Source: Phycisphaerales bacterium (GTDB taxonomy: Bacteria > Planctomycetota > Phycisphaerae > Phycisphaerales > UBA5793). From it: 64,000 bases of DNA. Each line of letters opens with the position of its first letter. Position 1 is the first letter of the stretch. Location: contig JADZAS010000014.1 of the NCBI GenBank assembly GCA_020852515.1, forward strand, positions 1-64,000, in the 5' to 3' direction. Below are positions 50,685 through 60,072 of the stretch, in pieces. The notes under the pieces are model-generated. The model was not told the DNA's origin. It did no database searches and saw nothing but the letters and a program-made list of their open reading frames with translations. A program made the translations under genes and the position numbers.

Positions 50685-51155
50685 TCAACTCTCTGCTTTC
50701 AACGCTTTCGGCGCAGCCGCGCCGCACTCGGGGCAGACTGCGTGATCCGCCCCGCGCAGGTCATAGCCGCACTTGGCGCACAGGCCCGGCGCGCGACGAC
50801 GGTCGCGGTACCAAATCCAGGTGGTTGGGAGCGCCGAAAGACACACAAGACTCCAGAGCGGAACCGAAGTCGATGTAGTGATTGATCCGCCAGGGGTAGA
50901 AAATGTTTGCCTGGCGAACCACCAGGCGAACTGGGTCGAAGCTCGATACGGCCCCACCCACTGAACTTGGGACCAGTGAACTGAAACGGGTTCACGCCAT
51001 TCGACATAGATCTGCCCACTCATCACACTCGCCAAAAGCGAAGTCGGCAGAAACAGCGTGCAAGCCCACCACGCACTCCCCACCCACACGACCAGCAGCA
51101 GCACGGTCAGCACCGTTCCGCTCCACTTGATCGTGCTCCGCAGCCGCTTGCGCAT
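50685..51155 (-). CDS. Zinc-ribbon membrane protein of the RSTIKW family
   Basis: The 156-residue product begins MRKRLRSTIKWSGTVLTVLL, with the first membrane segment at about 10-31. The extracytoplasmic middle contains WREPVSVHWSQVQW. A second membrane segment (VPLWSLVCLSALPTTWIWY) and the tail CAKCGYDLRGADHAVCPECGAAAPKALKAES follow. The last 20 residues are nearly identical to the next upstream copy (51243), showing recent duplication or gene conversion, while the middles are unrelated in detail. It is the downstream end of a four-gene array transcribed leftward. Confidence 0.72.
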   Translation of the reverse strand: MRKRLRSTIKWSGTVLTVLLLVVWVGSAWWACTLFLPTSLLASVMSGQIYVEWREPVSVHWSQVQWVGPYRASTQFAWWFARQTFSTPGGSITTSTSVPLWSLVCLSALPTTWIWYRDRRRAPGLCAKCGYDLRGADHAVCPECGAAAPKALKAES

Positions 51156-51183
51156 CAACTCATCATACCACGCCGCGCGCCGC

Positions 51184-51224
51184 CTCCCTCCTCCGGCTCT
51201 GCGGGGGAGGGCCGGGGTGGGGGC
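51184..51224. repeat. CTCCCTCCTCCGGC hairpin element, copy 1
   Basis: CTCCCTCCTCCGGCTCTGCG then GGGGAGGGCCGGGGTGGGGGC folds on itself. It lies just after the stop of the zinc-ribbon gene at 51243. Copies 2 and 3 are at 52234 and 62802, in both cases inside the 3' ends of other members of the same gene family. Confidence 0.65.
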
Positions 51225-51242
51225 GCTTTGATGCTCTCCTGC

Positions 51243-51713
51243 TCAACTCTCTGCTTTCAACACTCTCGGCGCAGCAGCGCCGCACTCGGGGCAGACTGCG
51301 TGATCCGCACCACGCAGGTCGTAGCCGCATTTGACGCACAGGCCGGGCGGCTTGCGTCGATCGCGCCACCAGAGCCGGAGGGTGGGCGCTGCGAAGAGGA
51401 CGACCAACGCCCAGAGCGGGATATAGACCTTGGCGTACGTCCCGGCGGCCCACGGTCCTCGCTCAACATAGAACCACCATGAGAACGACAACGGGGACGA
51501 GTGTCGTCCAAGCTCCCATTCGCTGCTCACGGGGATGATTGACCAGGGCTCTTCCCAAACGACGAGGACTCGGCCCGCGTGCACTCCCAAGCCCAGCGTC
51601 GGCCCTAGATAGAAGATAGCATACCACCACGCACTCCCCACCCACACGACCAGCAGCAGCACGGTCAGGACCGTTCCGCTCCACTTGATCGTGCTTCGCA
51701 GTCTGCATCGCAT
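51243..51713 (-). CDS. Zinc-ribbon membrane protein of the RSTIKW family
   Basis: The 156-residue product begins MRCRLRSTIKWSGTVLTVLL. A membrane segment is followed by a middle part with VHAGRVLVVWEEPWSIIP, echoing MSAGRIGIGWREPWSITS of the gene at 41893. The second membrane segment is IPLWALVVLFAAPTLRLWW and the tail is CVKCGYDLRGADHAVCPECG. The ATG overlaps the stop of the upstream gene (TGATG), so the two are translated together. Family function is unknown. Confidence 0.72.
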   Translation of the reverse strand: MRCRLRSTIKWSGTVLTVLLLVVWVGSAWWYAIFYLGPTLGLGVHAGRVLVVWEEPWSIIPVSSEWELGRHSSPLSFSWWFYVERGPWAAGTYAKVYIPLWALVVLFAAPTLRLWWRDRRKPPGLCVKCGYDLRGADHAVCPECGAAAPRVLKAES

Positions 51714-52204
51714 CAGTTCGGCGATCCTCCGCTTACCTGCTCCGCTGGTCTCCGATCAATGCGCTCGCACTGCGCGCCGCATTCCGGGCAGACGGCATGC
51801 GCCGTGCCGCGCAGGTCGTAGCCGCATTTGACGCACAGGCCGGGAGCGTGGCGGCGATCGTGATACCACAGCCAAAGAGCCGGCACTCCGAAAGGCAACA
51901 CAATGACCCAGGTCGGGATGGCAAACCATCCGACTGTCACGGCGCCTGTGGTAAACCGATGGCTATCGAACCACCACTGCATCGGTCCCAAATGACGTTC
52001 GAACGTGCATGTAAACTCAATGCGAGGGTGATCCGGGGTCTCGATATACCAGATCGAGACCATGCCGCCGTTCGCGGTGATTCCACCCGTCTTTCGCATC
52101 CCGAGCGAGCATTCCCACCACACACTCCCCACCCACACCACAAGCAGCAGCACGGTCAGCACCGTCCCGCCCCACTTGCACGTGCTTCGCAACCTTCGTC
52201 GCAT
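51713..52204 (-). CDS. Zinc-ribbon membrane protein of the RSTIKW family
   Basis: The 163-residue product begins MRRRLRSTCKWGGTVLTVLL, with Cys in place of Ile in the RSTIKW motif. The middle part contains ANGGMVSIWYIETPDHPRIE. The second membrane segment is TWVIVLPFGVPALWLWY, and the ribbon CVKCGYDLRGTAHAVCPECG is followed by a polar tail (QCERIDRRPAEQVSGG) unlike those of its neighbours. Its end overlaps the next start by one base; only 9 bases separate it from the upstream copy. Confidence 0.72.
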   Translation of the reverse strand: MRRRLRSTCKWGGTVLTVLLLVVWVGSVWWECSLGMRKTGGITANGGMVSIWYIETPDHPRIEFTCTFERHLGPMQWWFDSHRFTTGAVTVGWFAIPTWVIVLPFGVPALWLWYHDRRHAPGLCVKCGYDLRGTAHAVCPECGAQCERIDRRPAEQVSGGSPN

Positions 52205-52213
52205 CAGGTGATC

Positions 52214-52714
52214 CTACGTCGTCGCACTCTCAACTCCCTCCTCCGGCTCTGCTTGTCCTGAGCCAAGTCGAAGGGCGGGGGAGGGCCGGGGCGGGGGCGT
52301 ACCGCATTCAGGACACACGCCGCTCGCGTTGCCGCGCAGGTCGTAGCCGCACTTGATGCACAGGCACAGGGCGCGACGGCGGTCGCGGTGCCAAAGCCAG
52401 CCGGAAGCCAACCCCGTCGCGAGCAACAAGAACCAGATTGGGATGTAGCCGATGACTTCGGCGAACGGGTCCGGTCGCACGGTCACATCGAACCACCACC
52501 ATACGTCGAACGTGTGATCCTTGAGCCAGAACTCGAACTCGTCGTCCCTCCAGCGGTCTACTCCGATTGATAAGCCTCCACCATAAACCTCTAAGTAAAA
52601 CCCGTGACTGCGAACGCCGGCTTGCCACCACGCACTCCCCACCCACACCACAAGCAGCAGCACGGTCAGCACCGCCCCGCCCCATTTGATCGTGCTCCGC
52701 AGCCGCTTGCGCAT
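52214..52714 (-). CDS. Zinc-ribbon membrane protein with a repeat-derived C-terminus
   Basis: The 166-residue product begins MRKRLRSTIKWGGAVLTVLL and has an aromatic, acidic middle (DDEFEFWLKDHTFDVWWWF). The second membrane segment is IPIWFLLLATGLASGWLWH and the ribbon is CIKCGYDLRGNASGVCPECG. The final residues (PPPRPSPALRLGSGQAEPEE) are encoded by the intergenic-type hairpin element at 52234-52298, so a mobile repeat now supplies the end of the protein. It heads the four-gene array; the GNAT gene lies 12 bases upstream on the same strand. Confidence 0.72.
   Translation of the reverse strand: MRKRLRSTIKWGGAVLTVLLLVVWVGSAWWQAGVRSHGFYLEVYGGGLSIGVDRWRDDEFEFWLKDHTFDVWWWFDVTVRPDPFAEVIGYIPIWFLLLATGLASGWLWHRDRRRALCLCIKCGYDLRGNASGVCPECGTPPPRPSPALRLGSGQAEPEEGVESATT
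52234..52298. repeat. CTCCCTCCTCCGGC hairpin element, copy 2 (inside a gene)
   Basis: This has the same ends as copy 1 (CTCCCTCCTCCGGCTCTGC ... GGGAGGGCCGGGGCGGGGGC) with about 24 extra bases at the loop (TTGTCCTGAGCCAAGTCGAA). It encodes the C-terminal tail of the zinc-ribbon protein at 52214 without breaking the frame. Confidence 0.65.
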
Positions 52715-52726
52715 CAGGCGATCATA

Positions 52727-53884
52727 TCACGCCGCATCCAGCAACCTTCGGTGCCCCACCACACGCTCCCCCTTCAGCGCGCTCGGCGCTCCCTCCAGCG
52801 CCCGGCTCACCTCATACTTCCCGCACGCCCCAGGCGGCAGCAGCCGTCCCTCATTGATCTGCTCAATATACCGATCCCGCAGCTCCCGCGCCGCAGCCAC
52901 CAGTTTCGGGTCGTTGCGCCGCCGCGTGCGCGCCTGCTCCGCCTTGCGGGCCTTGCTCTGGGCGGCCTCCGCATCCTTCTTTGCCTTGATTTCCTCAGCG
53001 CTGAGCACGGGTGCGAACCACAGACCGCCGCGCGACACCGCGCGAGGCTTCGCAGCCGGCTTGCTCTTCACACCGCCGCGCTGCCGCGTGCGCTTCTCAA
53101 CCTCCCCGCTCGGCAGCGCATTGATCATCTCCTCCACGCCCGGCAGCACCGCAGGCTTGGCATCGCTCCAATGAGTCCCCGGCGGGATCGGCAGCGCAAT
53201 GCGATTCTCCCGCACCGCGCCGCCCGTCGTCTCGCTCGGATACCAGTACGGCGTCTCGGCATCACCTTCACGAATCCGCCTCTGCCAGAAGATATGGATG
53301 CGAGGGTCCTTCTTCGCCCCGCCCCGCCGCGCGCCCGTCCGAAACGCCAGCGGCACAAACCCGAGACTCTCCCAGAAGCAATTCGCCTCCAGGTCCTGCG
53401 CACACCAGCAGCAGAACAGTTTGCAGCCGTACGGCGCGCGATCGAAAACAGCCTTGATGAGGCTCGCCCCGATCAGGCCGCGCTGATGGCCGGGCGCGAC
53501 GTTGAGTTGATAAATAATCCCGCAGTCATCGCGCTTGAAGTACCGGTCAGCGGAGATGCAGTAGGCCAGCGGCTGCGCCTGAGTGGGTGAATGGGTGAGT
53601 GGGTGACCGGGTGATGCCTCGGACTCGCGCTGCAACTCTGTCACCCCCTCACCCCGACACCCCGTCACCCCGTCAGCGGCCTCCGCAATCAACACCTGCC
53701 CCTTGCGTATATTCCCCTCCAACTGCTGTCGCGGGAACCAGCCGACTGCTCTGCTGTGCTCTCTCTGGAGCGCATCGATAAACGCCAGGTCCGTTTCGAC
53801 CGCGGTGCGAATCGAAATCGCCTGACGGGGGTCGGGAATCGCGATCGCGCTGGTCGTATGTCGTTGAATCGCCGTGTTGGTCAT
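52727..53884 (-). CDS. GNAT-fold acetyltransferase with long basic C-terminal region
   Basis: The 385-residue product has an N-terminal N-acetyltransferase-like domain: SIRTAVETDLAFIDALQREHSRAVGWFPRQQLEGNIRKGQVLIAEA, then IIYQLNVAPGHQRGLIGASLIKAVFDRA, which holds the acetyl-CoA loop (here GHQRGLIG), then CQDLEANCFWESLGFVPL. The domain is interrupted after residue 70 by about 34 residues (CRGEGVTELQRESEASPGHP...) encoded by a palindromic repeat; without it the strands join normally. The C-terminal third is Lys/Ala/Arg-rich (VLSAEEIKAKKDAEAAQSKA). Similar proteins occur next to phage or plasmid genes, which fits the repeat-rich setting. Acceptor unknown. Confidence 0.72.
   Translation of the reverse strand: MTNTAIQRHTTSAIAIPDPRQAISIRTAVETDLAFIDALQREHSRAVGWFPRQQLEGNIRKGQVLIAEAADGVTGCRGEGVTELQRESEASPGHPLTHSPTQAQPLAYCISADRYFKRDDCGIIYQLNVAPGHQRGLIGASLIKAVFDRAPYGCKLFCCWCAQDLEANCFWESLGFVPLAFRTGARRGGAKKDPRIHIFWQRRIREGDAETPYWYPSETTGGAVRENRIALPIPPGTHWSDAKPAVLPGVEEMINALPSGEVEKRTRQRGGVKSKPAAKPRAVSRGGLWFAPVLSAEEIKAKKDAEAAQSKARKAEQARTRRRNDPKLVAAARELRDRYIEQINEGRLLPPGACGKYEVSRALEGAPSALKGERVVGHRRLLDAA
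53576..53676. repeat. Palindromic element inserted in frame in the GNAT gene
   Basis: GAGTGGGTGAATGGGTGAGT at 53581 pairs in part with TCACCCCCTCACCCCGACAC at 53641, giving a GGGTGA/TCACCC hairpin of about 100 bases. The same element, in the same orientation relative to the host gene, interrupts the ASCH gene at 59815-59910. Confidence 0.7.
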
Positions 53885-54079: not shown

Positions 54080-54775
54080 TCACGCCGCCTGCGCCAGGCC
54101 GCCGGCGATGTTCGTGCTCACCGGCTGGCACGCGGGGCCCGACTCCTTGCGGGCGTTGAACCAGAAGGCGGTCAGCCACACCTTGCTCGCCGCCGGGATC
54201 GATGCAGGCAGTTCCACATCGAACACCGTCTTGGAGACGTTCATCGAGAACGACCACTCAGCCGGGTCGGAAGGCACGGTGTCGCCGACGTGGTAGACGA
54301 TGGTCGCGCCCTGCACGCCCGGCGGCTTGCCGCGCGAATCGGGATTCAACTGGTCGCGCAGCCGCACTTTGATCGTCTTGCCGAACGTCGAAATGATCGA
54401 CAGATCGGGCGCCGTCGTCGGCGCGCCGACCGGCGTGGGGTCAGCCGGAATGCGAATGCCCAGTTGGCCGCGCATGGTGTCGGTCGTGCCGGGGAACGCC
54501 TGGACGATGTCCACGAGTTCCCACGCGCCGTTGGGGTCGTTGAGCAGGCTTTCCTTGGCGACGTTCTTCGCGTTCACATTCGCCTTGGAATTCGTGTTCG
54601 GGTTCGCGGCGATGTTGTACGCCGACACGAACGCATTGTGCAGCACGTTGTAGCCCGCCGCCTGCGCGGCGTCCAGGCCGTACGTCGCCGCCGACGACGT
54701 GATGAGCGTGTCGAAGTTCGTGGACCACGTAACGAGGTCCGCGTCCTTCCGTGGCGGAAAAGTGGGAACAGGCAT
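54080..54775 (-). CDS. Hypothetical protein, 231 residues
   Basis: ATG 54775 follows AAAGGAG at a good distance. The product begins MPVPTFPPRKDADLVTWSTN, with no signal or membrane segment. Residues about 15-115 look helical (AATYGLDAAQAAGYNVLHNA, NAKNVAKESLLNDPNGAWEL). The second half is beta-rich and ends in an Ig/fibronectin-like strand pattern (PASIPAASKVWLTAFWFNARKESGPACQPVS). I have a general impression that proteins with the opening FPPR-D-L--W occur widely in planctomycetes and verrucomicrobia, but I know of no assigned function. The open frame extends upstream through the 20-bp tandem array, but that part is not coding-like. Confidence 0.65.
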   Translation of the reverse strand: MPVPTFPPRKDADLVTWSTNFDTLITSSAATYGLDAAQAAGYNVLHNAFVSAYNIAANPNTNSKANVNAKNVAKESLLNDPNGAWELVDIVQAFPGTTDTMRGQLGIRIPADPTPVGAPTTAPDLSIISTFGKTIKVRLRDQLNPDSRGKPPGVQGATIVYHVGDTVPSDPAEWSFSMNVSKTVFDVELPASIPAASKVWLTAFWFNARKESGPACQPVSTNIAGGLAQAA

Positions 54776-54970
54776 AGAACACTCCTTTCCGGCTTGCGCC
54801 GAAGTGATAACGCATGGCTGCGCACGACCATCGCGCGCCGCTTCCGCGTGTGCTCTCCCACTCCCGTGTGAACTGGTTGTCAGGGGCCTGTTTCGGCGCA
54901 TGATTTGAGGCCATCCAGCCCGATGCGCGAAATTCTGGCAAAAAAGGGCAAAAAGTGCCCGGCGGCCGCG

Positions 54971-55210
54971 CCGTTGTGCGAATAAGAGTCTAATTCGCAG
55001 AATTAGACTCGCGGAGTGCGAATCAGACTTGCGGCGTACGAATATGGATCGCGGAGTGCGCCCGAGAGATGCGGCGTGCGAATGAGGCCCGGGGAGGGCG
55101 AATCGCGCTCCCGGCGTGCGCCCGAGACTCACGCCGGGCGAATCAGTCTCGCGGAGTGCTCCCAAGGATCGCGGCGGGTGAGTGAATGACGTGGAGAGCG
55201 CCCCGGCACG
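54971..55210. repeat. 20-bp-period tandem array of 12 degenerate units
   Basis: Units of exactly 20 bases run from 54971. The best-kept ones read GCGGAGTGCGAATCAGACTT, GCGGCGTACGAATATGGATC and GCGGCGTGCGAATGAGGCCC. The first half (GCGG(A/C)GTGCG) is better conserved than the second. The phase is never lost over 240 bases. Within the first two units GAGTCTAATT-CGCAG-AATTAGACTC (54986-55010) is a perfect 10-base palindrome. Not a CRISPR, as there are no separate unique spacers. It occupies the gap between two leftward genes; nothing else is seen in 54776-55248. Confidence 0.85.
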
Positions 55211-55248: not shown

Positions 55249-55596
55249 TCAGTCTGTCGCCGCTGGAACTTCCTCATCCGTCAGCTTGGCCGTGGGCAGG
55301 CGCTTGAGGCAGTACTCAATGATGTCATCGCGCCGATGGGCCGTGTCGAACACGGCGCTCGTGGCCAGGTAGGCGTTTGAGCGGTCGGTGATGTCGAAGT
55401 AGTGCTTGTTGCGGCTGGACTGGTGCCTCTGGTAGTGCGCCTCATCGGCTGATGCGGCCCGGCAAGTGTCCACCGCCTGTTCAGCCGCTTGGCGCGTAGG
55501 GTACGACCCGCTCTGGATGAGGGGCCGCCCGCTGCGGGCCAAGGCAACGAAGTAGAACTGCTCATCGCTCGATCGGCGTACACGGAACACAGCCAA
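55249..55596 (-). CDS. Tandem DUF1508 (YegP-like) protein
   Basis: The 115-residue product starts at TTG 55596 after AAGGAG, giving MAVFRVRRSSDEQFYFVALA. This start matches the ATG start of the close paralogue at 60687 (MAVFHLRRSSDDRYYFVAYA), which supports it. Unit 1 is FYFVALARSGRPLIQSGSYPTRQAAEQAVDTCRAAS. The linker is YQRHQSSRNK. Unit 2 is YFDITDRSNAYLATSAVFDTAHRRDDIIEYCLKRLP. The open frame continues upstream to 56109 but is unrelated there. Function unknown; the pair of close paralogues 5 kb apart indicates recent duplication. Confidence 0.68.
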   Translation of the reverse strand: MAVFRVRRSSDEQFYFVALARSGRPLIQSGSYPTRQAAEQAVDTCRAASADEAHYQRHQSSRNKHYFDITDRSNAYLATSAVFDTAHRRDDIIEYCLKRLPTAKLTDEEVPAATD

Positions 55597-55766
55597 GGCC
55601 GGCGCTCCTTCTTCACACGGGTGGAAGACCTTTCGAACGAGAATCATATGGCGGCCAGTCAGCGCTCCAGTCCACGCGGCTACGGCCCCGCTCCAACACA
55701 GTGCAACCGAGAACCACGCGGCCGCGCGGGTCCTGGACGTCCGGCGGTGCGAGCGCCAGGGTGACT

Positions 55767-56123
55767 CTATGTGTTGTCCTGCAGTGCGGCGGTCGGGCCG
55801 CTGCGTTTGCAGGCGGCGATGGCGGCTTCGCGGTCCTCGATGGAAGCGTAGTCGTTGCTCCGGGCGATGACCTGACGGGCCAGGTTGAGCAGATGAAAGG
55901 AGAACGGGCCGCTGGTGGTGAAGAGGCGCTGGTAGCGATCGTCGAAGGATGAACTGGTCATGCAATCCTCGATGGCCGACAAGGCTAGCTCTTTGGCGAA
56001 GTACGTCGCGCTGAACAGGAGGGTCTGGCCGTCCGGCCCGCAGAGCGTGAATTCGAACAGGGGGGCTCTGGTGGACTTGTCGAGGTGGTAGAGAGCTGCG
56101 ATGCTGCACCTCCTTTCGGACAT
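55767..56123 (-). CDS. Tandem DUF1508 (YegP-like) protein with an unusual start
   Basis: The product is 118 residues if ATG 56123 is used. Unit 1 is FEFTLCGPDGQTLLFSATYFAKELALSAIEDCMTSS. DDRYQRLF forms the YegP-type linker. Unit 2 is FSFHLLNLARQVIARSNDYASIEDREAAIAACKRSG. A perfect AAAGGAGG lies inside the frame after codon 3, and the codon six bases beyond it is ATC (residue 8); no ATG, GTG or TTG is at that spot. Either the upstream ATG is used without a ribosome site, or initiation occurs at ATC, which would be rare. Confidence 0.6.
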   Translation of the reverse strand: MSERRCSIAALYHLDKSTRAPLFEFTLCGPDGQTLLFSATYFAKELALSAIEDCMTSSSFDDRYQRLFTTSGPFSFHLLNLARQVIARSNDYASIEDREAAIAACKRSGPTAALQDNT

Positions 56124-56364
56124 TCGGACGATTGTAGTGCCGCTCCGGGGCATACGGCTATTCGTTGGATAACGGCACTTGGGTGAAATGACTCGTGGGG
56201 CGGCTTTGCCGAAAGTGGTGATGCGGGGGAAAGTCCAGCGGAGCAAAGCGGAAAGCGCCCCCATCCCCGGCCTTCCCCACCTCCGGATCAGGGCGGTTTT
56301 CCTGTAGCCGCCGCGCCGTCGGCGGCCAGATCATTCTGGCTGTCAGCAAGCACCTGCCATGACG

Positions 56365-56924: not shown

Positions 56925-59354
56925 CTAGGACACAACGGTGCTCTGAAGCCGTGGACGGATGTCCTCAATGTCATTGGCAATAGCGGAGTGTATTTCCGGC
57001 CAAACACGCATGAAATCGGACGTTCCCACTGCCTTCGCCGACTCATCCAGGTAACGCAGAAAGACGGCAGCCCGCTCCAGTCGTTCGCTAATTGTGTCGA
57101 CGTCGCGAATGCGCCGACGCACGTCCATGTCGAGAATGGGCGTGTCCACAACAACGGCATCTAGATACACAAATGACTTCACAAGACTCGTGATATGATA
57201 CCTTCCACGGTCTCTTAGCCTCAGTCGGTCGCCAACTGCCTCCCAATTTGACTCGAATCGGACGCCCTCGCAATACTCCCTCTCGAACAACTGCCGAAGT
57301 CCCGCAAAGACGCTCTCGGCCGAATACCCGGAGCCACAGGCATGGCCAACGATCTCCTCTATCGTGCAATACCCGTGCCGCTGAGTACCCTCGTAGTGCC
57401 GATTCATGAATTCCAATATGACTAAAAGCAGAAAGTGCTCTCGCGGATCCGATGTCTCAATGTCGAACAGATTAAGAAATTTGCAGTCATTGGGGTCGTA
57501 GTGGATTGCATCGCCAAAGATGATTGCACGCGCAACCTCGTGCTCCCTCAGCGTGTAACCACCAGATCGCCACAGCTCAAGTATTTTCTGGGTGTTCAGA
57601 TTGCCACTAATCAACATCTGCCGAACGTATTGAATGAGGACACGGTTGTTGCCGTTCGCGATTCCGGTGAACATGGACCCAAGCTCTGCGCGCCGACGCA
57701 CCGAATCGGCGCAACACTCCAATACCTCCGCAGCGCTCCCTAGGTCCCAAGCAACCTCCTTTCCGAGCGCCGCGCGGACCACTTCTATTCGCTGGTTTTC
57801 CCCGCGCGCCAGCGATGCAGCATAATCAAAGCGCTTGCGGAGCATAACTGCCGCTTTTGGAGGCGCGATGGAGATGATCTTTGGAGCAATTGAGTCAAGT
57901 GCGCCGTCTAAGTTTGATCTCTGGAGCGTGCCCGGGCGCAAGCAAATGAACACAAGCGCCGACCAATCCCGAGCGGCCGCAGACGCTCGAAGCGCAGCCT
58001 CCTCTTGAATGGCGTCAATCCTCCGATCGATATTGTCAAAGAATACCGAGACGGAGTGTCCCTGCCCAGATCGCAAATGGTGAAAGACATGCTTGAGATA
58101 GATTTGCCGGTCTCTGACGAAGTTTGCAAGAAATTGTGCCTCAGCCTCCTCCAGTTGGGCTTGCCCTTGGCGCGCTGCAAGTGTTCCTTCAACCGACTTT
58201 CGGAACCGCAGAGTCGGTAAGCGGAGCACGCCACGCACCGTTGCGTCATCGTAGATGTCAATACCGTAATTCTCAAGCAATTGGCGTTCAATCTCGCCGT
58301 AGAGGTAATCCGCGACTGCCTCAGGCGTTTCGGGACGGTCAAGGAAGTCAACGTCGATCTGTATGTACTTTTCTAATGACTCTTTGGCGCGCACTTGACG
58401 CAGGTACTGCAAATAAATTGACTTTCCGTGCCCGATTCTCCCGAGCACCACGATAGGCTTCTCCGGAGACTTTGCTGCGGAAAGTAGGTCGCCGACATCG
58501 CTTGCTCGCGCCGCCTTTTCTGCAACTATTGCATCCGTGCGCTTTCGCTGATCAATCAACTCCTGCGCGAGTTGTAACGTACCGTCCGCCTTTCCAGGTG
58601 TGATGTAGCATTCCTGCAGAAATGATTGATCCGAATCGTTTTGGTTCACCTCCTCCCAAATGAGTTGCAATGGTACTCGTAGATGATTGCGTATCGCTGC
58701 CTCGGTCCGGACTACAGGATACCCAGCAATGCTTGCGGATAGCTTTGAGGGTGCAGGGTCAGTACGCGACCGGAACAATTGGCCAATCACCGCGTTGTAG
58801 AGCAGACCGATCGGACTCAGGCACTTGAAGAACACTCGAAACTTCCGCTCGATCGCGTCGAGCGACTCAAACACAAAAACCCGCCGGTCTTCGATCGATT
58901 CTCCAGGCACGTATGTGAGCCCGAATACCCACTGATGTCCGTTGGTGATTGCGACGTAACGACTTCCATATGAATTTGCATAGTTGGCAGCCTGACGCAA
59001 AGCCGCGGCCGCGGTTTTTGACTCGCTAGCAAGTAATGAGAAACTGACCGGTCGATCAGGGTACTGATCGCCTGACACTAGAAACGTCGTGCCCTCCCGC
59101 TTTGCCTCAAGAACTAGTGCTCTCGAGGCGCGGTGATCGAATACGTAGTCTGCAAAGCCCACATCACGAGCAAACGTTTCTGTATCCACCCGAGCGCGAT
59201 CCCAGCCCAACACTTCAAAGAGAATCTGGTCGATAACGCGCATTCGCGTAGTTGCTTCATTAGCATCTTGGCCCGACGAGAATGACGGCCGAATCGTCCG
59301 GAACTTGTGGAACGCGTCATCGGCAACCCAAGACTGCTCTTGAGGTTCGTTCAT
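56925..59354 (-). CDS. PD-(D/E)XK nuclease-like plus P-loop NTPase protein, putative phage defence
   Basis: The 809-residue product has an N-terminal domain (about 30-180) like the nuclease part of type I restriction subunits: D69 in VGFADYVF and E83-A-K85 in LVLEAKREG form a D...ExK site. A P-loop NTPase domain follows, with Walker A GRIGHGKS (305-312) and Walker B VSVFFDNIDR (435-444), resembling STAND/KAP-type ATPases. The C-terminal 300 residues are helical with winged-helix-like parts (TIEEIVGHACGSGYSAESVF). No methyltransferase or helicase is encoded beside it, so it is not a classical restriction system. The gene is markedly richer in A/T than all neighbours, which suggests acquisition by transfer. 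I infer an abortive-infection or NTPase-regulated nuclease role. Confidence 0.68.
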   Translation of the reverse strand: MNEPQEQSWVADDAFHKFRTIRPSFSSGQDANEATTRMRVIDQILFEVLGWDRARVDTETFARDVGFADYVFDHRASRALVLEAKREGTTFLVSGDQYPDRPVSFSLLASESKTAAAALRQAANYANSYGSRYVAITNGHQWVFGLTYVPGESIEDRRVFVFESLDAIERKFRVFFKCLSPIGLLYNAVIGQLFRSRTDPAPSKLSASIAGYPVVRTEAAIRNHLRVPLQLIWEEVNQNDSDQSFLQECYITPGKADGTLQLAQELIDQRKRTDAIVAEKAARASDVGDLLSAAKSPEKPIVVLGRIGHGKSIYLQYLRQVRAKESLEKYIQIDVDFLDRPETPEAVADYLYGEIERQLLENYGIDIYDDATVRGVLRLPTLRFRKSVEGTLAARQGQAQLEEAEAQFLANFVRDRQIYLKHVFHHLRSGQGHSVSVFFDNIDRRIDAIQEEAALRASAAARDWSALVFICLRPGTLQRSNLDGALDSIAPKIISIAPPKAAVMLRKRFDYAASLARGENQRIEVVRAALGKEVAWDLGSAAEVLECCADSVRRRAELGSMFTGIANGNNRVLIQYVRQMLISGNLNTQKILELWRSGGYTLREHEVARAIIFGDAIHYDPNDCKFLNLFDIETSDPREHFLLLVILEFMNRHYEGTQRHGYCTIEEIVGHACGSGYSAESVFAGLRQLFEREYCEGVRFESNWEAVGDRLRLRDRGRYHITSLVKSFVYLDAVVVDTPILDMDVRRRIRDVDTISERLERAAVFLRYLDESAKAVGTSDFMRVWPEIHSAIANDIEDIRPRLQSTVVS

Positions 59355-59667: not shown

Positions 59668-60072
59668 ATGCTGGCCCTTTCCATTCGCCAACCCTACGCC
59701 GAACTCATTCTCCGCGGGGACAAGACCATTGAGTACCGCTCCCGGCCGACGCGGGTGATTGGGCGGCGGTTTGCCATCTATGCGGCTCGCAAGTGGGCCG
59801 GCGTGGCCGGGCATGAGTGGGTGATGGGGTGTCACGGTGATGGGGTGTCAGAGCCAGGAACCAGCGCCGCCGCGGACACCCACTCACCCATTCACCCCCT
59901 CACCCCTTCAGACTTACCGACCGGCGTGCTCGTCGGCTCGGCGGTCATCTGCGACTGCATCTTTAAAGACGGCTGGTGGCAGTGGCATCTCACTGCGGTG
60001 CGGCGCTACAAGCGGCCGCGGGCGCTGCCCAGGGGCAGTCGGCCGCAGCCCGTGTGGTTCCGCGCGGCGTGA
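59668..60072 (+). CDS. ASCH-domain protein with an in-frame repeat insertion
   Basis: The 134-residue product begins MLALSIRQPYAELILRGDKTIEYRSRPTRVIGRRFAIYAARK, the typical ASCH opening in which the beta-barrel carries the GxKxxExR motif (here GDKTIEYRSR). It resumes at LPTGVLVGSAVICDCIF and ends with WHLTAVRRYKRP. Between these parts (about residues 50-80) lies a foreign segment rich in Gly, Ser, His and Pro encoded by a palindromic repeat; the frame is preserved. ASCH domains bind RNA or modified nucleosides and include N4-acetylcytidine amidohydrolases. The barrel may tolerate the loop or may be inactive. Confidence 0.72.
   Translation: MLALSIRQPYAELILRGDKTIEYRSRPTRVIGRRFAIYAARKWAGVAGHEWVMGCHGDGVSEPGTSAAADTHSPIHPLTPSDLPTGVLVGSAVICDCIFKDGWWQWHLTAVRRYKRPRALPRGSRPQPVWFRAA
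59815..59910. repeat. Palindromic element inserted in frame in the ASCH gene
   Basis: GAGTGGGTGATGGGGTGTCA pairs in part with GACACCCACTCACCCATTCA, giving a GGGTGA/TCACCC hairpin. It matches, in the same orientation relative to the reading frame, the element inside the GNAT gene at 53576-53676. Confidence 0.7.

Follow-up and report, generated by a model that had tools for sequence, protein, structure and literature searches.

Plasmid partition sites and phage or repressor operator arrays consist of several direct or palindromic sites that are bound cooperatively. Iterons are Rep-bound repeats within replication origins, numbering two to seven per origin listed, and are 17 bp long in RK2, 19 bp in F and P1 and 22 bp in R6K and pPS10; their in-phase spacing matters for cooperative Rep binding, and a half-turn shift abolishes cooperativity (iteron sections of PMC4980987). 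BrickBuilt of Porphyromonas gingivalis, a minisatellite/MITE with a 23-nt unit and terminal inverted repeats, is present in 19 dispersed copies in the outline given in PMC4596501, and the SPADE survey, in its part on heptamers, describes intergenic heptamer tandem repeats as widespread and without known function (PMC6344855).

Here we analyse a tandem array in a 64-kb stretch of DNA (the whole of it referred to as the window) together with its relatives in other genomes. The likeness to the iterons of those sections lies in the in-phase direct repeats of about two helical turns: the window period of 20 bp and the 20–22 bp of its relatives fall within 17–22 bp. The arrays differ from them in being chromosomal, in having 6–16 units each and in having a unit that differs at nearly every locus. 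The genes adjacent to the window array are DUF1508, FN3-family and GNAT-like genes, and because no Rep gene adjoins it we do not class it as an iteron array. By analogy, it would work like iterons, with phase mattering for cooperative binding. BrickBuilt, as outlined, is likewise an intergenic tandem array close to genes, in Bacteroidota, but it is one dispersed sequence family, whereas the present unit is undispersed and the period is 20–22 bp. The surveyed heptamer repeats share the intergenic position and the lack of a known function, and 21 is 3 × 7; however, 61 arrays compared here had no 7-bp sub-period (lag 7, combined z −1.7), and a heptamer origin was rejected. Partition sites and operator arrays differ in that no partition genes recur here and the unit is private to each locus, although helically phased operator arrays have in common with the present ones the phased sites 5′ of a gene. 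No description of these arrays was found in the open-access literature (PMC), subscription papers being outside the scope of that search.

A phased 20-bp array upstream of an FN3-family gene

When every 180-base stretch of the window was scored at lags 5–120, the top periodicity scores were lags 40, 60 and 20 at the array (Table 1). Its three-lag score of 0.643 compares with a maximum of 0.464 in 1000 shuffles, and TRF reported a period of 20 with 8.0 copies at 55000–55159. An earlier note on this DNA had described twelve 20-base units in phase over 240 bases. The phased array stands, but the count does not: the unit at 55201 is out of fit, and we therefore recognise 10–11 units instead of twelve.

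The minus-strand sequence of the units is CGC[AG]C[TG]CCGCGA..., with ATT or GGG as the last letters. Conservation of the columns CGCACTCCGCG is mostly 0.8–1.0, with two variable columns inside at 0.5–0.6, and that of the other columns is 0.4–0.8, in agreement with the note, which described the half GCGG(A/C)GTGCG as better kept. From unit to unit A and C mostly alternate, and lag 40 (0.612) therefore scores above lag 20 (0.526). A coding repeat was rejected as the origin of the array, since its period is no multiple of three. The palindrome GAGTCTAATT-CGCAG-AATTAGACTC that the note placed at the left end of the array is indeed perfect. Six perfect 10-bp inverted repeats with a loop of 3–8 bases occur in the 64 kb, compared with 0.4 expected, and the palindrome is therefore not unique by itself.

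Table 1. Features of the array locus in the window.
Feature	Position	Strand	Remarks
GNAT-like gene	52727..53884	−	Directly downstream of the family gene; Pfam match weak, below cut-off; context
231-aa gene, founder of the array-linked family	54080..54775	−	No Pfam match; AlphaFold2 model; FN3 match to 6pol_A
Leader, array to start codon	54776..54985	−	201/225 identical in G004 from the palindrome anchor
Putative terminator-like hairpin and T run, GGGCACTTTTTGCCCTTTTTT	54940..54960	−	In the interval from array to gene; G004 and G003 have a similar element; sequence read directly
20-bp array, 10–11 in-phase units	54981..55200	−	Minus-strand unit CGCRCKCCGCGA..., ending ATT or GGG
Perfect 10-bp inverted repeat, 5-bp loop	54986..55010	.	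Gene-proximal end of the array
DUF1508 gene	55249..55647	−	Stop codon 49 bp from the array's outer edge; context

The array lies 206–425 bp upstream of the 231-aa gene, whose product has no family at useful score in Pfam, NCBIfam or PHROG. Its AlphaFold2 model (pLDDT 90.3) has an N-terminal helical domain (helices 11–104) and a C-terminal domain at about residues 115–228 that aligns to 6pol_A over 98 residues (Z 11.8, rmsd 2.7). By this modelled match the protein qualifies as having an FN3 fold; a shared fold shows no function. Foldseek returned no match at E ≤ 0.001 for the N-terminal domain, and its best fold match (Z 7.1, rmsd 3.0, 80 residues aligned) was rejected as lying in the chance range for helical bundles. 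Homologues of the GNAT-like gene likewise follow the family gene in G004 and at two loci of G026, in a neighbour cluster of four loci.

Several other features of the window may be recorded. Two consecutive DUF1508 genes lie just upstream of the array (55249–55647 and 55767–56264, both minus strand). Four tandem paralogues of about 160 aa, each with a terminal GYDLRG...CPECG motif, occupy 50685–52714 (minus strand). An 809-aa protein encoded at 56925–59354 (minus strand) had no Pfam match at E 0.01 and no PADLOC match; to our eye its N-terminus looks restriction-type, with a P-loop. At 53580–53675 and 59819–59910 there are short tandem repeats of 8/16 bp in which TGAGTGGG or CACCCACT is frequent; one of the two lies inside the GNAT-like gene, and they are possibly a dispersed 8-mer repeat.

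Conservation of the locus in close relatives

Array DNA was searched in 41 genomes, the genome of the window (G000) included. It was clearly present in two others, G004 (92%, E 1.9e-122) and G003 (72%, E 6.9e-41), both of the same genus, and matches in the remaining genomes reached at most 43 bits. The earlier note had suggested checking synteny and phase in relatives: in both genomes the array stands in register before the orthologue of the 231-aa gene, and the wider locus shows blockwise synteny on both sides. Between G000 and G004 the array is identical at 181 of 200 positions without a gap, compared with 80.1% at third codon positions, and the 200 bp beyond the array are not alignable (102/236 columns); the array is thus constrained in this one species pair. 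The corresponding codon comparison of G000 with G003 (0.52–0.55) was left out because the register was lost after an indel. The G003 array has gained units through an internal 60-bp duplication, so that repeat turnover is real. The palindrome is still perfect in G004, via a change on both arms, and keeps 7 of 10 pairs in G003.

Arrays recur upstream of the gene family

A single-protein search found homologues of the 231-aa gene in 9 of the 41 genomes, and an alignment-based search found the family in 16 of 392 genomes of the phylum, the copy numbers per genome being "at least" values. Scanning a collection of species genomes gave 57 family loci with record titles of Planctomycetota, Verrucomicrobiota, Acidobacteria, Armatimonadetes, a delta proteobacterium and Bacteroidota groups; one further locus was titled Klebsiella, a name that is probably wrong. 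A purpose-built profile then recovered 128 distinct family genes from the collected loci, of which 31 were excluded (less than 500 bp upstream or no N-terminal part) and 97 analysed.

We compared the best lag between 10 and 59 in the last 800 bp upstream of each gene with the 99% shuffle level. Lags above threshold were 21 (52 genes), 42 (11), 20 (five), 22 (one) and 12 (one). An upstream array of period 21/42 (63), 20 (5) or 22 (1) was therefore present at 69 of the 97 genes, and 27 had no array above threshold. The loci L284, L286 and L289 had none at this threshold, and the Armatimonadetes locus (L127) scored 0.476, slightly under it. Arrays above threshold came from records titled Planctomycetota, Verrucomicrobiota (L125), Acidobacteriota (L129, L130, L133 and L134), delta proteobacterium (L135) and Bacteroidota; judged by record title, the recurrence spans at least five phyla.

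TRF with a free choice of period detected arrays in 50 of 97 upstream regions versus 2 of 91 downstream regions, and arrays with a period of 20, 21 or 22 or multiples of these in 49 and 1, respectively. Of these 49, 32 were free of indels and 17 contained 1–7% indels; phase is therefore mostly, not perfectly, strict. As background we used 2459 tiles of 800 bp located more than 4 kb from any family gene, among which 29 had arrays of the 20–22-bp type and 123 had arrays of other periods. With one fixed threshold applied to both sets, 70 of the 97 regions upstream of family genes were positive versus 29 of the 2459 tiles. Because many family genes are related, they were also grouped by identity: at least one member carried an array in 34 of 45 groups at 50% identity and in 18 of 26 at 40%. 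The pattern is predictive, since in G011 an array led to a distant family member that starts 41 bp downstream of it, although earlier protein searches had reported none there.

Spacing rather than unit sequence is conserved

For the 61 period-21 arrays, unit profiles were compared with one another in every phase and strand orientation. Unit similarity exceeded the 99% null level in 0.8% of 1064 pairs at 20–30% protein identity, in 17% of pairs at 50–60% and in 54% at ≥ 80%; below 50% protein identity the units were mostly unrelated. Judged from these profiles, spacing is conserved and unit sequence is not. Even paralogues inside one genome mostly have unrelated units, an exception being a pair in G026 (L072 and L119) with 64% protein identity and an almost identical unit.

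The earlier note had proposed a search for other arrays of the window unit in its own genome, and this yielded scattered single matches and no second array. No partition genes lie in the window neighbourhood and none form a recurring cluster among the family neighbours; a single ParA-like ORF was seen at G022:C17 only, beyond the array. With no other array, mostly unrelated paralogue units and no recurring partition genes, the suggestion of a partition site or chromosome organiser is unsupported. A Bacteroidota regulon built on the unit was also rejected: AAAGTTT-N14-AAAGTTT fell below its reversed control in 12 of 12 genomes, and in G412 five of the seven exact matches, among the matches listed, were the family's own array.

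A candidate operator array

For the analysis of symmetry, 67 arrays were selected for a period of 20–22 bp (593 units, mean adjacent-unit identity 0.63). Dyad symmetry was significant in 35 of them compared with column-permuted versions (60 permutations each) and not significant in 32, the window array among these, so that symmetry is partial. Stem mismatches in the 67 arrays comprised 271 G-T and 242 A-C pairs, with no G-T excess, and predicted RNA stability did not differ between strands (p 0.14). Dyads without a G-T excess or a strand difference in folding, together with the 20–22-bp range, point to double-stranded DNA as the acting form.

The explanation that we favour, with slightly less than even confidence, is that the units are binding sites private to the locus and set in helical phase, forming an operator array that controls the FN3-family gene. 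The array would be a cis-regulatory element with one binding site per unit, about two helical turns apart. We infer that dimers of a DNA-binding protein would bind cooperatively, lined up along the same side of the helix, and that this binding would control transcription. The site sequence would be private to the locus and would drift with its cognate binder, which could be the family protein itself, a partner of it or a different regulator, and the phase of the array would be under selection. The earlier note had read a protein-binding array from helical phasing. The phasing is strongly supported, through comparison and not from the window array alone, in that the periods of the homologues are 21, 20 and 22 and practically no others. 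Of the functions that it listed, an operator series fits best, given the position 5′ of genes, the dyads and the constraint between G000 and G004, although the window array itself lacks a significant dyad.

Several results speak against the operator array. No binder was found: structure comparisons of the family protein recognised no DNA-binding fold, and its pI is near neutral (median 7.0). Among 580 neighbours of 103 genes there was neither a recurring regulator gene beside the arrays nor a Rep-like cluster. The 32 arrays without a significant dyad, the 27 family genes without an array, the arrays without a nearby family gene and the position of one promoter (both below) count on the same side.

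A broader and more tentative proposal is that the arrays form a spacing-defined class of elements. Such an element would comprise 6–16 private units about two turns apart, paired across at least five phyla with an FN3-family protein in variable, often defence-gene-bearing regions, and might act as a self-cognate module in which specificity diversifies and geometry is frozen. The usual way to find control elements is to look for sequence that is conserved; in these arrays it is the two-turn helical spacing that has been kept, and such elements would therefore escape ordinary alignment. The pattern also ties a gene family that Pfam, NCBIfam and PHROG do not name to a cis element that can be recognised, so that its regulation can be tested.

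Curved DNA and transcribed leader as alternatives

The arrays could instead be sequence-agnostic architectural elements, in which repeats every two turns sum small bends into a curve, and the curved DNA sets the place of a promoter, nucleoid protein or supercoil apex. Such an element would work without a private binder, which would explain why units are unrelated between loci, and the presence of arrays near other genes fits as well. In a wedge model, predicted curvature was 3.9 degrees per turn for period 21, 2.7 for 20, 2.5 for 22 and 1.7–2.0 for other periods, the same ranking as that of the observed periods. However, the arrays were no more curved than their column-permuted versions (mean z 0.2), and curvature beyond the effect of the period itself was rejected. 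Dyads are not needed for curvature, and matches at half a unit (lag 10/11) occur less often than expected (z −4.3), whereas maximal curvature would favour them. Because the wedge ranking matches the periods but the arrays are not extra-curved, curvature stays a rival, one that we consider unlikely.

A smaller chance falls to a transcribed leader, in which the array would lie in 5′ untranslated RNA and act as serial hairpins or repeated RNA-binding sites, with the terminator-like element perhaps serving as an attenuator. The terminator-like sequence between array and gene would agree with this, as would a folding z of about −1.7 relative to column-permuted arrays. At L096 the best-scoring sigma-70-like promoter precedes the array, so that transcription from it would include that array in the leader. 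The mismatch counts and the similar stability of sense and antisense strands are at odds with such a role, an Rfam search gave no match on any array, and a structured RNA element was rejected on the lack of strand asymmetry and of Rfam matches. An RNA role also gives no reason for a period of 20–22 bp. The element TAnnTTTG is a Bacteroidota promoter element; it was absent between array and gene in 16 loci.

Arrays beyond the family and their genomic context

Contiguous samples of G000 and G026 (875,490 bases), G402 and G331 (800,000) and G011 and G025 (400,000) were scanned for further arrays. At least eight non-coding-looking 21-bp arrays had no nearby family gene (two at L214 and one each at L252, L253, L256, L295, L298 and L300). 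Arrays are thus strongly enriched at the family and not exclusive to it. At three other arrays a family gene was located 2.6 kb away with a ResIII gene between (L197), 1.1 kb away with an opposite-strand gene between (L246, E 2.2e-29) and 41 bp away (L294, E 1.3e-17). Some of the 21-bp arrays detected were coding (L196, L219, L244 and L273).

Two of the loci deserve separate mention. At L214 (12117–12906) two 21-bp arrays of unlike sequence adjoin each other; the score of the second is 0.909, and a search within 4 kb gave no family gene. In L179, a record titled as a Klebsiella pneumoniae MAG, a title that probably reflects misbinning, a 21-bp array precedes an unrelated 267-aa gene; a second array-linked family based on this gene was rejected, as no relative was found in 392 genomes in a search run without a positive control.

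Defence-type genes were located near array or family genes at L118, L124/L215, L212 and L220 (G026), L115/L197 (G000:C10) and L288 (G032); the types were HerA, GmrSD, HATPase, ResIII and T5orf172, with methylase-like and DUF262-like genes recognised by eye. This context bears on a further possibility, that array and family gene mark a cassette boundary or recombination site at which accessory, often defence, genes are gained and lost. Some family genes without a near array have one farther upstream with a gene between, at G000:C10 (ResIII), G026:C16 and G022:C11. Also in line with this possibility are the genes near the G032 pair, of DUF262-like and methylase-like type, and those for GmrSD, HerA, HATPase, type I R and T5orf172 that several loci have upstream. 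Yet the neighbour clusters contained no integrase or recurring mobility gene, the 40 neighbours scanned were varied, searches against phages, plasmids and viral contigs gave no hit, and the window locus is blockwise syntenic in two relatives; we regard a cassette boundary as improbable. A neutral minisatellite, functionless and changing size by slippage, would account for the duplication in G003, for units alike within an array and not between loci and for 21-bp arrays without the family, but this already disfavoured reading has little probability against the narrow period range, the one-sided position, the gap-free conservation above third codon positions and the persistence beside the family across phyla, and the decayed satellite that the earlier note had allowed fits poorly because different species and phyla retain both phase and position.

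Two further genes accompany family loci. A conserved 121-aa gene with a secreted-looking product lies upstream of the array at six Bacteroidota loci (L147, L150, L152, L154, L159 and L160). Directly downstream of the family gene, L092, L101, L102, L111 and L113 encode a TxKIxxxAV-type repeat protein, which on our own reading of its sequence appears tail-fibre-like.
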